This document shows, piece by piece, positions 6,292 to 11,799 of a DNA stretch of 64,000 nt. The stretch lies in NCBI RefSeq assembly GCF_000519005.1, contig NZ_JAER01000010.1, forward strand, positions 1 through 64,000, in the 5' to 3' direction. Numbering within the stretch: position 1 is the stretch's first letter; each line of letters opens with the position of its first letter. Source of the DNA: Nocardioides sp. J54. GTDB taxonomy: Bacteria > Actinomycetota > Actinomycetes > Propionibacteriales > Nocardioidaceae. The notes beneath the pieces were generated by a model. It did no database searches. It was not told where the DNA came from and worked only from the letters and a program-made list of their open reading frames with translations. The position numbers were made by a program, and so were the translations under genes.

Positions 6292-6382
6292 TCGTCCGCG
6301 GACGGTCCGCTGGTCGTCCGCTGACGGTCCGTGGGCGGTCGGCCGGCGGCCGGGGTTGAGGTCAGCGTCACATCCCCGCGAA

Positions 6383-6399
6383 GTTACCAACGGGTAGTA
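6383..6399 (+). promoter_or_regulatory. shared beta-oxidation-type operator, site 1
   Basis: The sequence GTTACCAACGGGTAGTA is a near-palindrome (TTACC-n3-GGTA core). It fits the same pattern as sites before the acyl-CoA dehydrogenase (21637) and the enoyl-CoA hydratase (29590). It lies 128 bp upstream of the etfD start. The 90 bp before it contain GTCCGC-rich direct repeats and a small CGTCCGCGGACG palindrome after the preceding gene. Confidence 0.55.
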
Positions 6400-6526
6400 T
6401 CCGCTCGGCCGTGGCTGTCGCTGTCGCAATGGTAAGGCTTGCCTTCGGTATGCCTCTTCCGTGCATGGCAATAGGCTCGGCCCGCGCACCCTGCGTGTCC
6501 TGATCCAGACGAGTGGAGAGTCGCTG

Positions 6527-9500
6527 ATGCAGACCGTTGCGATCGTGGTTTCGCTGGCCATCTCGGTGGTCGCCATCGCCCTCACGGCACGCGCCGTCGC
6601 GACGATGCTGGGCGTCATCCGCAAGGGCCAGCCGGCGCCCGGCCGCTCCGGCAACCCGGTCGGCCGCACGGTCACCATGCTCAAGGAGACCGTGCTCCAC
6701 ACGCGCATGCTGCAGTGGACCTGGGTCGGCATCCTGCACTGGTTCGCGTTCGCGGCGTTCATCGCGCTCTCCACCGCCGTCGCAGCGGCCTTCCCGCAGC
6801 TGTTCGACCCCGAGTGGACGATCCCGGTCCTCGGCAAGTTCTTCATCTACGAGTGGGTCGCCGAGCTCCTCGGCCTGCTCGGCACGATCGCGATCATCCC
6901 GCTGATCATCTACCGCCTCACGCACCGCCCCTCGGCCATCGGCCGACGCAGCCGCTTCTTCGGCTCGACCATGTGGCAGGCCTACTTCGTCGAGGCGATG
7001 GTGCTCCTCGAGAGCTCCGCGATCCTGTTCATCCGCGGTGCGGAGTACAACCTCGCCAAGGCCCACGGCGGCGAGGCCGCCGAGCACGCCGACGGCTTCC
7101 ACTTCCCGGTCTCGCAGTTCTTCGGCAACCTCTTCCCGACCGGCGAGGAGTCGATCGGGACGCTGGAGAACATCATCTACTTCATCGCGATGGTGAAGAT
7201 CACCTCCGCGATGATCTGGCTCATCGTCATCTCGACGAACCTCACCATGGGCGTGGCCTGGCACCGCTTCACCGCCTGGTTCAACATCTGGTTCAAGCGC
7301 GAGGACAGCGGTCGTACGGCGCTCGGCGCGGTCAAGCCGCTCACGTCGGGTGGCAAGCCGATCACCCTTGACGACATCGACGACCTCGACGAGGAGGCCA
7401 CCCTCGGCGCCGGGTCCATCTGGGACTTCTCCTGGAAGGACATCCTCGACTTCACGACCTGCACCGAGTGCGGTCGCTGCCAGTCGCAGTGCCCTGCGTG
7501 GAACACCGAGAAGCCGCTGTCGCCGAAGCTGATGATGATGGCGATGCGCGAGGAGGCGTACGCCGCCGCCGGTGGCGCCGAGCCGCGTGCCCTGGTCGGC
7601 AAGTCCGAGCACGAGCAGTCCGAGGGCGTCGACGACTGGTTCTACATGCCCGAGGGCGGCGACTTCGTCGTCGACGAGGACGCCCTGTGGGCCTGCACCA
7701 ACTGCGGTGCCTGCGTCCAGCAGTGCCCGGTCGACATCGAGCACGTCGACCACTTCATCGACATGCGCCGCTACCAGGTGCTCGTCGAGTCGAACTTCCC
7801 CTCCGAGCTCAACGGCCTCTTCAAGGGCCTCGAGAACAAGGGCAACCCGTGGAACATGTCGGCCACGGCCCGCCTCGACTGGGCGAAGGACCTGCCCTTC
7901 GAGGTCAAGGTCGTCGGCGACACCATCGAGGACCTCGAGTCCGTCGACTGGCTGTTCTGGGTCGGCTGCGCCGGTGCCTACGAGGACCGTGCCAAGAAGA
8001 CGACCCGCGCGGTCGCCGAGCTGCTCGACCTGGCCGGCGTCTCCTTCGGCGTCCTGGGCAACGGCGAGACCTGCACCGGTGACTCCGCCCGCCGCGCCGG
8101 CAACGAGTTCGTGTTCCAGGGCCTGGCCCAGCAGAACATCGAGGTGCTGACCGAGGCGAAGGCCAAGAAGGTCGTCTCCACCTGCCCGCACTGCATGAAC
8201 ACCCTCAAGAACGAGTACCGCCAGCTCGGTCTCGAGCTCGAGGTCATCCACCACACCCAGCTGCTCAACCGCCTCGTGCGCGAGGGCAAGCTGACGCCGG
8301 TGGCGCAGGGCGAGGGCGCGCACGCCCGCAGGATCACCTACCACGACCCGTGCTTCCTGGGTCGCCACAACCAGGTCTACACGCCGCCGCGCGACCTGCT
8401 GCAGATCCTCCCCGGCGCCGAGTTCGCCGAGATGGAGCGCAACTCCGAGCGGTCCTTCTGCTGCGGCGCCGGTGGTGCCCGCATGTGGATGGAGGAGAAG
8501 GTCGGCGAGCGGATCAACCTCAACCGCACCGCCGAGGCGGTCGGGACCGGCGCCGACCAGGTCGCCGTCGGCTGCCCGTTCTGCCGCGTCATGCTCTCCG
8601 ACGGCCTGACCAAGATGCAGGCCGACGGCGAGGCCCGCGAGGAGGTCGAGGTCCTCGACGTCGCGCAGATGCTGCTCGCCTCCGTCAAGGGCGAGCAGGC
8701 CACCAAGCTCAAGCCGGGCGAGGGTGCGCCGCTGCAGCCGAAGGGTGCCGCCGCGCCCGCCGAGGCGAAGCAGTCCGTCGAGACCAAGGCCGAGCCCGAG
8801 GCCGGCGACGTCACGCTGACCGAGGACACCGTCGCCGACACCGAGGACGTCGGCCCCGCTGCGAAGGCGTCGGGCGGCTCGTCGATGTTCGACGACCCGG
8901 GCTCGATGTTCGACTCGCCCGCGCCGGCCGCCCCGGCGGAGAAGAAGGCCGAGCCCGCCGGCGGCGGCTCGCTCTTCGACGACGCCGGCTCGCTGTTCGA
9001 CGAGGCCCCGGCCGAGGCCAAGGCGGAGCCGGCCACGCCCGCCCAGCAGCCCGCTGAGCAGGCTGCCGAGAAGTCCGGCGGTTCGCTCTTCGACGAGGGC
9101 GGCTCGCTCTTCGACACCCCGGCCCCGGCTGCCCCGGCTGCGCCGGCTGCCAAGGAGGAGCCGAAGGCCGAGGAGAAGCCGGCCGCGAAGGCCGAGCCGG
9201 TCGCCGACCTGGGCTCGGGTGGGTCGCTCTTCGACATCGCCCCCGCCGAGGAGGCGCCGAAGGCCGCCACGTCCCAGCCGTCCGCCCCGGAGGCGAGCAC
9301 GCCCGCCGAGGACCTGGCCTCGGCTCCGAAGCCGACCGAGGAGAAGGTCGTCCAGGCCGAGGCCGAGGGTGGTGTCGCGGCCGCTGCGCCGCAGGCCCCG
9401 ACCGTCGACCTCAACGCCGGCGGCTCGCTCTTCGACATCGAGGCCCCGGAGCCGGCCGCCCCGGCCGCCAAGGCCGCCGAGGCCCCCGCCCCGGCGCCGA

Positions 9501-10018
9501 CCCCCGAGGCGCAGCCGGTGGAGGCCGACGCGCGTGCCGAGGAGGCCGCGGTCGTCGGTGAGTCGCCCGCCGCCGAGCCGGTCGAGCCGACCGCGCCGGC
9601 TGCCCCGGCCGAGGAGCCGGGGGCTCCCGCGCGGGCGGCGTCCTCGACCGGTGCCGCCAGCACGCCGAAGACCGACGTCGACATCAACGCCGTCAGCTCG
9701 CTCTTCGACATCGAGGCGCCCGAGGCCGCCACGGTGGCGCGTCCGGCCGCCCCGGCTGCCGAGCCCGCCCCGGCCGCGGAGGCTGCTCCGGCGCCCGAGC
9801 CCGAGCCGGCCGTCGAGGAGCCCGCGGAGGCGCCCGCCGAGGCGACCACCGGGGAGCCTGCGGCGGAGGAGCCTGTTGCGGAGGAGGAGCCGGCCCCGGC
9901 CGACCCCGCCCCGGCAGCCCCGGCCCAGGCGAGCGCGCCGGCGTCGTACTCCGGCGAGGCGCACGAGCCCCGTCGCGACGTCGACATCAACGCCGCGGAG
10001 TCCCTCTTCGACCTCTGA
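6527..10018 (+). CDS. etfD: EtfD-like membrane (Fe-S) oxidoreductase (ETF:menaquinone oxidoreductase) with repeat tail
   Basis: This 1163-aa protein starts at the ATG after GTGGAGAG; a GTG at 6461 is an unlikely alternative. Residues 1 to about 260 form a NarI-like multi-helix membrane domain. Two 4Fe-4S motifs follow, CTECGRCQSQCP near 312 and CTNCGACVQQCP near 390, then two CCG domains with HDPCFLGRHN near 606 and FCCGAGG near 644. This is the architecture of Rv0338c (EtfD), which passes electrons from ETF in beta-oxidation to menaquinone. From about residue 722 the protein is a disordered Ala/Pro/Glu tail with ten SLFD/SMFD motifs, about 440 residues beyond the catalytic body and ending ESLFDL. 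The upstream operator-like site suggests co-regulation with fadE5. Confidence 0.88.
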   Translation: MQTVAIVVSLAISVVAIALTARAVATMLGVIRKGQPAPGRSGNPVGRTVTMLKETVLHTRMLQWTWVGILHWFAFAAFIALSTAVAAAFPQLFDPEWTIPVLGKFFIYEWVAELLGLLGTIAIIPLIIYRLTHRPSAIGRRSRFFGSTMWQAYFVEAMVLLESSAILFIRGAEYNLAKAHGGEAAEHADGFHFPVSQFFGNLFPTGEESIGTLENIIYFIAMVKITSAMIWLIVISTNLTMGVAWHRFTAWFNIWFKREDSGRTALGAVKPLTSGGKPITLDDIDDLDEEATLGAGSIWDFSWKDILDFTTCTECGRCQSQCPAWNTEKPLSPKLMMMAMREEAYAAAGGAEPRALVGKSEHEQSEGVDDWFYMPEGGDFVVDEDALWACTNCGACVQQCPVDIEHVDHFIDMRRYQVLVESNFPSELNGLFKGLENKGNPWNMSATARLDWAKDLPFEVKVVGDTIEDLESVDWLFWVGCAGAYEDRAKKTTRAVAELLDLAGVSFGVLGNGETCTGDSARRAGNEFVFQGLAQQNIEVLTEAKAKKVVSTCPHCMNTLKNEYRQLGLELEVIHHTQLLNRLVREGKLTPVAQGEGAHARRITYHDPCFLGRHNQVYTPPRDLLQILPGAEFAEMERNSERSFCCGAGGARMWMEEKVGERINLNRTAEAVGTGADQVAVGCPFCRVMLSDGLTKMQADGEAREEVEVLDVAQMLLASVKGEQATKLKPGEGAPLQPKGAAAPAEAKQSVETKAEPEAGDVTLTEDTVADTEDVGPAAKASGGSSMFDDPGSMFDSPAPAAPAEKKAEPAGGGSLFDDAGSLFDEAPAEAKAEPATPAQQPAEQAAEKSGGSLFDEGGSLFDTPAPAAPAAPAAKEEPKAEEKPAAKAEPVADLGSGGSLFDIAPAEEAPKAATSQPSAPEASTPAEDLASAPKPTEEKVVQAEAEGGVAAAAPQAPTVDLNAGGSLFDIEAPEPAAPAAKAAEAPAPAPTPEAQPVEADARAEEAAVVGESPAAEPVEPTAPAAPAEEPGAPARAASSTGAASTPKTDVDINAVSSLFDIEAPEAATVARPAAPAAEPAPAAEAAPAPEPEPAVEEPAEAPAEATTGEPAAEEPVAEEEPAPADPAPAAPAQASAPASYSGEAHEPRRDVDINAAESLFDL

Positions 10019-10170: not shown

Positions 10171-11799
<1,629 letters not shown>

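Follow-up and report, generated by a model that had tools for sequence, protein, structure and literature searches.

A repeated SLFD motif in the disordered tail of a Nocardioides EtfD and its joint variation with a hairpin of EtfB

The closest described system is mycobacterial EtfD (Rv0338c / MSMEG_0690), which carries a disordered tail with 'conserved interspersed repeats' and a length that varies by species (PMC13083937, where Szekely 2020 is the source cited for the repeats). In the 2026 EtfD structure the tail is invisible and electron-transferring flavoprotein (ETF) is not seen bound; its authors consider that ETF may bind weakly, and an AlphaFold3 model places ETF on the mycobacterial tail (PMC13083937). 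When EtfD of M. tuberculosis was immunoprecipitated, it brought EtfB alone of the two ETF subunits (PMC8593149). For human ETF and its quinone oxidoreductase no complex had been described by 2014 (PMC4148887). Here we describe the EtfD of Nocardioides sp. J54, encoded in a 64,000-nucleotide stretch (positions 1 to 64,000 of contig NZ_JAER01000010.1; hereafter the window), whose disordered tail holds ten copies of a short S-L-F-D or S-M-F-D motif, and we compare the presence of this motif with the state of a hairpin in EtfB.

The EtfD tail and its motifs

A first-pass annotation, made from the letters of the window, described a long disordered Ala/Pro/Glu region beyond the EtfD body with ten regularly spaced motifs under selection for multivalent binding. 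The features concerned, all on the forward (+) strand, are the following.

6527–10018, +: etfD (ETF:menaquinone oxidoreductase, by Pfam and PDB homology), 1163 amino acids
8675–10015, +: disordered Ala/Pro/Glu-rich tail, 447 residues, net charge -60 (composition, AlphaFold2)
8786–8878, +: conserved element KAEPEAGDVTLTEDTVADTEDVGPAAKASGG, adjoining the body, between the body and the SLFD array (alignment of relatives)
8882–8893, +: motif 1, SMFD (SMFDD)
8903–8914, +: motif 2, SMFD (SMFDS)
8969–8980, +: motif 3, SLFD (SLFDD)
8990–9001, +: motif 4, SLFD (SLFDE)
9083–9094, +: motif 5, SLFD (SLFDE)
9104–9115, +: motif 6, SLFD (SLFDT)
9224–9238, +: motif 7, SLFDI
9425–9439, +: motif 8, SLFDI
9698–9712, +: motif 9, SLFDI, long form DVDINAVSSLFDI
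10001–10015, +: motif 10, SLFDL, which is the C-terminus, long form DVDINAAESLFDL

The ten motifs stand where they were first placed, and the tail is as long and disordered as had been claimed. In the AlphaFold2 model, built on 22 aligned sequences, the first few tail residues (from 8675) still belong to the last helix, and ten-residue blocks beyond residue 730 have mean predicted local distance difference test (pLDDT) scores of 24–47, indicating an unstructured tail; the body is modelled modestly too, with a predicted template modelling (pTM) score of 0.40. All 10 phenylalanines of the window tail sit inside its ten S[LM]FD motifs, and among 20,000 shuffles of the tail one S[LM]FD arose in 28 and two arose in none. 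The regular spacing did not hold up: successive motifs are 7, 22, 7, 31, 7, 40, 67, 91 and 101 residues apart, widening toward the C-terminus, and this pattern is common to 71 tails (median distances, counted from the C-terminus, of 129, 74, 58, 44, 38.5, 27, 21 and 19.5 residues, the seventh and eighth resting on 46 and 22 tails). Motifs 9 and 10 show internal duplication in their long forms.

Conservation was followed in relatives at 80 loci, 75 of them titled Nocardioides or Pimelobacter and three cut by contig ends. Of the 77 stop-terminated EtfD open reading frames (ORFs), 71 finish in SLFD[LI]; four of the other six (L006, L011, L049, L073) look frame-shifted or hit masked bases, and two (L078, L080) have tails without the array. 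The 71 tails, on which the motif-context counts rest, hold 5–11 motifs each (median 8), with 574 of their 614 phenylalanines inside S[LMI]FD. Motifs 1 and 2 are followed in most cases by T or D (65 and 35 of 142), the middle motifs mostly by I or L, and the C-terminal motif by L (68/71) or I (3/71). Codon changes and spacing were taken from 71 tails, that of the window among them and L069 left out. Over 35 near-relative pairs, the 1100 aligned motif codons had 45 changes of amino acid (4.1%) and 179 synonymous ones, and the 13164 codons of the remaining tail had 5013 (38%) and 3062, which makes protein change about nine times rarer in the motif. That motif codons so rarely change relative to the spacer argues that protein-level selection holds the motif while the spacer drifts, much as the first-pass annotation had supposed.

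Within the genome, an [S]-L-F-D-[L/I]-stop pattern matched EtfD alone. A 24-position profile of the C-terminal region gave strong matches only in EtfD (E values 1.4e-13 and 1.1e-8), the next of seven matches (E 0.5) covering positions 4–14 and holding no SLFD, and a DNA pattern for GG-S-L-F-D-hydrophobic found EtfD twice and one unrelated place that reads GCFFDL. A separate, narrow pattern matched a lone SLFDV in a frame resembling undecaprenyl diphosphate synthase (family assigned by eye), a folded enzyme, at chance level. With the patterns tried, which did not extend genome-wide to lone SLFD words or to SLFD followed by D, E or T, no second array was seen.

The EtfD open frames among the matches listed for 245 genomes of the order run from 721–733 residues in f3, a Kribbella-like family with large genomes, to about 1500. 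Arrays of SLFD were present in tails read from genera g1, g3, g6 and g160, while tails without SLFD are long and acidic in g2, short in g4 and g5, and about 8–31 residues long among those examined from f3, f4 and f23. The motif as a mark of all actinobacterial EtfD was considered and rejected, as there is none in the Aeromicrobium-like (g2), Kribbella-like (f3, one tail), Streptomyces-like (f22) or Micromonospora-like (f23) tails read, these likenesses being tentative assignments. Mycobacteriaceae-like tails (L156–L158) carry a basic repeat of the GLGMKGAAKAPG or KGLGMKGAAKAPG type instead of SLFD, and Propionibacteriaceae-like tails (f2; L152, L153) carry the repeat SPIERAKLKAKG and end in SPIxRAKRLAAERRAKG; each of these tails ends in a variant copy of its own lineage's motif. 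The Propionibacteriaceae-like repeat suggests a third, basic code.

Other tails have features of their own. The tail of L155, a class-level relative, repeats NDVADPWDDDD, perhaps a fourth code. Aeromicrobium-like tails (L118, L120, L124, L125, L127–L130) hold ANPSG.DLS..AT near the C-terminus, with WANVGPVNTDL in some, and some Nocardioides tails hold SGADLSQAA-like versions of these Aeromicrobium-like tail bits. The tail of L268 (genome G581, g7) lacks SLFD and has a stretch, VAETWSGLDVESILEGDEVDISEFKTKLKAELKAEVLAEIKQELAGAL, that resembles an amphipathic helix. The conserved element at 8786–8878 can be made out, by the pattern AEP..D.T.TEDTV..TEDVGP.A.A, in certain relatives that lack SLFD (L144 and L258 among them), and could be an older binding site.

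Joint change of the motif and an EtfB hairpin

Genomes with at least three SLFD motifs were compared with genomes that have a complete tail and no SLFD, and a position was called diagnostic if a residue common to at least 85% of the SLFD group occurred in at most 15% of the group without. The first comparison set 33 SLFD genomes against 31 without (EtfB from 32 and 31 of them, EtfA from 33 and 25, the EtfD body from 33 and 31) and yielded 8 diagnostic positions among 262 in EtfB, 3 among 320 in EtfA and 3 among 725 in the EtfD body. Six of these 14 lie in EtfB 148–170, where about 0.25 would be expected under an even spread, an arithmetic figure that ignores kinship. Positions 148, 150, 152 and 168, 170 alternate like one face of a sheet or hairpin, the fold that this segment would be predicted to have. 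It aligns with about residues 152–174 of human ETF-beta, 15–37 residues before the recognition loop at residues 189–198 (PMC4148887).

The comparison was then enlarged to 54 SLFD genomes and 35 without, made up of the first 33 and 31, G566 and G557, and a further 20 and 3 that were read after the hypothesis had been fixed; genomes with cut tails (G025, G739, G747, G091), four for which a hairpin but no tail was read, and one with two SLFD (G161) were left out of the counts. EtfB here has 10 diagnostic positions, seven of them in 148–170. Hairpins without SLFD mostly have E148, S/T150, D/E152, R159, T168 and E170, an acidic face, and those with SLFD mostly V148, E150, Q152, K159, V168 and G170, a neutral and partly hydrophobic one. 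Single residues separate the groups sharply (E150 in 54/54 vs 3/35, Q152 in 52/54 vs 0/35, V148 in 49/54 vs 0/35, G170 in 51/54 vs 0/35), and E-x-Q-G in the first hairpin strand is found in 52 of 54 SLFD genomes, including 18 of the 20 read last, versus none of 35. Acidic residues at positions 148, 152 and 170 are absent from all SLFD genomes of the 54 but G738, which has a single one (53 to 1), and the 35 genomes without SLFD have three in 20 cases, two in 13 and one in 2.

In a smaller comparison with clades as controls and the hairpin taken as 141–171, the SLFD group places 8 of 11 diagnostic positions in it, against 0/16 for g2, 2/28 for f3 and 1/13 for f4, with further values of 2/20 for f2, 2/10 for g5 (two sequences) and 2/18 for g2 and g4 together. 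One EtfB, L209, was counted as g1 in this comparison; it belongs to g3 and duplicates that of G236 (L240). G236 has a derived-hairpin EtfB and no good EtfD match (best E 2.8e-6 in one search, none in another), perhaps an assembly gap.

Trees were built from EtfB and EtfA with the hairpin removed. Genomes of g5 and g7 without SLFD and with ancestral-type hairpins (G109, G193, G741, G743, G581) sit between or beside SLFD groups, and the g6 genomes G210 and G746 have SLFD together with the derived hairpin; from the placement of g5/g7 among SLFD groups, both traits changed more than once on either tree. Parsimony gives three changes each for SLFD and for the hairpin, and a model of dependent change beats independent change (likelihood ratio 23.2, p 1e-4), both on 59 genomes that do not include G097 and G106. 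The g7 case had been set down in advance as a forecast for G242; the tail read is that of its genus mate G581, which lacks SLFD and has the ancestral-type hairpin. Hairpins were read as well from G242, G582–G584, G742, G744, G745, G748, G752 and G754, and that of G752 (VVEQQDG..EVIEG) is intermediate.

Several genomes show individual states. The E-x-Q-G strand is present in G739, of whose tail 49 residues precede the cut, and in G747 an ancestral-like hairpin goes with a cut tail that contains SLFG three times and SLFD once. In G161 the motifs are more acidic (DDLFADD, SLFDDDD, terminal DDLWDD) and the EtfB hairpin has Arg at 152 and 168, a suggestive charge match. G097 and G106, sisters in the EtfD tree, have EtfB with R148, K152, Q159 and I170, and inner motifs in which SLFD is followed by A, S, T, E or V; the basic hairpin of these EtfB proteins (L367, L368), SRIERKENQ..AQRDGD.[SA]T[DE]VVIG, is unlike all others seen. 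The Kribbella-like genome G031 encodes an extra EtfB (L346), 73% like that of the window genome, with an ORF resembling an oxidoreductase dependent on flavin adenine dinucleotide among its neighbours; it was probably transferred.

The array is conserved, gained and lost, and the presence of the motif and the face of the EtfB hairpin change together. Neither the SLFD code nor its correlation with EtfB was found in the literature on EtfD/Rv0338c, on disordered tails and EtfB, or on Nocardioides EtfD, and in PMC13083937 the words SLFD and LFD are absent from the main text (figures aside), nor is an EtfB hairpin to be seen in the parts available.

Proposed docking of ETF and other explanations

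We consider it somewhat probable, at roughly 0.58, that ETF docks multivalently on the SLFD repeats, with EtfB hairpin 148–170 as their receptor. The tail would then be a flexible tether that catches the soluble carrier ETF and keeps it at the membrane, close to the electron-accepting Fe-S clusters of EtfD. The single S-L-F-D(-I/L) motif would act as a weak docking peptide, for which the hairpin is the candidate site: an acidic hairpin face would repel an acidic peptide, and the neutral or basic face found where the peptide exists would suit a hydrophobic peptide with an acid. Captured ETF could pass inward while exchanging fast with the many dehydrogenases it serves, and a passage inward is what the arrangement of the motifs, dense by the body and sparse far out, would allow. 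We infer the contact between SLFD and hairpin, the weakness and multivalency of the binding, and its purpose in faster turnover. Both the recovery of EtfB, alone of the ETF subunits, with EtfD (PMC8593149) and the modelled position of ETF on the tail (PMC13083937) fit docking. The first-pass annotation had argued for selection and for multivalent binding to ETF, acyl-CoA dehydrogenases or other membrane complexes; selection is well supported, and of these partners the comparative data point to ETF, and to EtfB especially. Its statement that no function had been described for such a tail needs amendment, given the mycobacterial tail, repeats and AlphaFold3 model already in print, although no experiment on the tail is seen in the available parts of that source (PMC13083937).

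A wider reading would have the tails carry lineage-specific docking codes for ETF: hydrophobic-acidic SLFD in Nocardioides and near relatives, basic GLGMK..KAPG in mycobacteria-like proteins and SPIERAKLKAKG in Propionibacteriaceae-like ones, with the EtfB hairpin of the SLFD lineage as co-evolving receptor and the gradient of motifs funnelling ETF. We regard this as possible, though falling short of even odds.

A number of observations weigh against docking at the EtfB hairpin. In the g4 control (two sequences) 6 of 21 diagnostic positions fall in the hairpin, which suggests that this region is variable in general, and something else, for example a contact with dehydrogenases or with the body of EtfD, may have driven the change in the hairpin. 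G097 and G106 have four and six SLFD and no E-x-Q-G (patch REKQVI), and may represent another variant of the motif–hairpin pair or else speak against a fixed receptor; in G738, six SLFD accompany a half-changed patch, VEQRIE; and the extra EtfB of G031 keeps V148, E150 and G170 in a genome whose one EtfD is a 724-residue open frame. Kribbella-like genomes hold ETF and an EtfD of 721–733 residues, so that the tail seems unneeded for the basic reaction. The trees conflict on g6, which groups with g5/g7 at 95/92 in one and falls outside the main SLFD clade and g5/g7 in the other (node 0.988), and in the latter the g5/g7 group itself has support 0.0. Labels and positions for the test of dependent change were picked after the data had been seen, with G161 (two SLFD) labelled as lacking the motif, and because independent changes are few (2–3) the test is weak whatever its p value, a situation in which tests of this type overstate.

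Among the alternatives, binding of the array to some other partner, be it acyl-CoA dehydrogenases, respiratory complexes or a factor in quality control or localisation, with EtfD as a hub and the EtfB change reflecting another contact, is an unlikely but serious one. The motif is strongly conserved, many copies could hold several proteins, and mycobacterial EtfD pulled down 49 proteins, of which 41 belong to the membrane or cell wall (PMC8593149); nonetheless, such a partner does not predict that diagnostic positions cluster in one EtfB hairpin, or that the two traits change jointly. That the motifs dock in cis, whether on the membrane or on the body of EtfD itself, for instance as a gate at the electron entry site, seems improbable. 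The hydrophobic L-F pair could enter a groove or the bilayer, but only 3 of 725 body positions follow the SLFD state and AlphaFold2 leaves the tail unstructured at the pLDDT values given above, in a model whose body is itself poor.

We likewise give little credence to an array that drives clustering or phase separation of EtfD by stickers and spacers, with recruitment of ETF secondary. Some eight aromatic stickers, spread along an extended spacer of low complexity and kept at 5–11 copies in 71 tails, would fit; the strict S-L-F-D order under selection exceeds what stickers of a generic aromatic kind would require, and the patterns described above, which left SLFD followed by D, E or T unsearched genome-wide, revealed no second array in the genome. 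Neutral spread of the repeats by duplication is very improbable and, as far as selection on the motif goes, refuted: the internally duplicated long forms DVDINAVSSLFDI and DVDINAAESLFDL and the varying tail length are what it would lead one to expect, but the changes in motif codons are mostly synonymous where those in the rest of the tail are mostly not, and the exact C-terminal motif recurs in 71 of 77 ORFs.

The folded body and comparison with known systems

Three further features of the protein lie on the same strand.

6527–8674, +: folded body of EtfD, with an N-terminal transmembrane part, a [4Fe-4S] dicluster and two CCG domains (Pfam, PDB)
7460–7492, +: first Fe-S motif, CTECGRCQSQC (sequence, Pfam)
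7694–7726, +: second Fe-S motif, CTNCGACVQQC (sequence, Pfam)

The start at ATG 6527 is preferred because relatives start with MQ.. at that point; the mechanical ORF begins at GTG 6461. Residues to about 716 form the EtfD body, in which Pfam CCG scores 120.3 bits over two stretches and Fer4 families exceed their cut-off, as for a [4Fe-4S] dicluster, and the AlphaFold2 model has long helices at the N-terminus. The sole PDB sequence match at E 0.001 is M. smegmatis EtfD (9ojn_A; E 6.9e-192, stretches 5–349 and 381–758), and the cysteines of VGCAGAYEDR, GETCTGDSARR and TCPHC align with those of its linear [3Fe-4S] cluster D1, whose ligands are C503, C538, C581 and C584 (PMC13083937). The genome gave one EtfD match and, by family search, one EtfB–EtfA pair, located on a different contig. 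By these homologies the window protein is an actinobacterial EtfD, with a predicted role in coupling ETF to menaquinone. Directly downstream lies a gene that resembles those of acyl-CoA synthetases (assigned by eye to the AMP-binding family; 10171–11799, +), and an antisense open frame of 1198 residues (6368–9964, -) overlies etfD, probably a by-product of high G+C (up to 81% in a 500-base window) and not a gene.

FadF of B. subtilis and DgcB of P. aeruginosa are EtfD homologues thought to accept electrons from ETF; they differ in having a shorter disordered C-terminal region or none (<3 kDa) and in lacking the cluster D1 cysteines (PMC13083937). With mycobacterial EtfD (9ojn) the window protein shares a homologous body and a disordered, repeat-bearing tail, and it differs in the repeat itself, ten S[LM]FD motifs as against the GLGMKGAAKAPG-type repeats of the mycobacteria-like L156–L158. 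Single-stranded DNA-binding protein (SSB), in its C-terminal tip, and FtsZ, in its C-terminal peptide, have a disordered linker that ends in a conserved short peptide; unlike these, EtfD has many upstream copies besides the terminal one, and its partner is proposed from covariation. CsoS2 and EPYC1 are disordered scaffolds whose repeated short motifs keep a weak multivalent hold on a soluble partner. The tail of the window EtfD resembles them in that a conserved short motif recurs along a disordered chain, and differs in that the array is the tail of the partner's own electron acceptor, with client binding proposed from the covariation in EtfB. A disordered EtfD tail with interspersed repeats was already known from mycobacteria, and neither the SLFD array nor the matching change in EtfB was found in the literature covered here. 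Their co-change identifies, at the level of residues, the two surfaces that may form an interface. If the lineage codes are real, core energy metabolism would offer a clear example of a private recognition code that changes.

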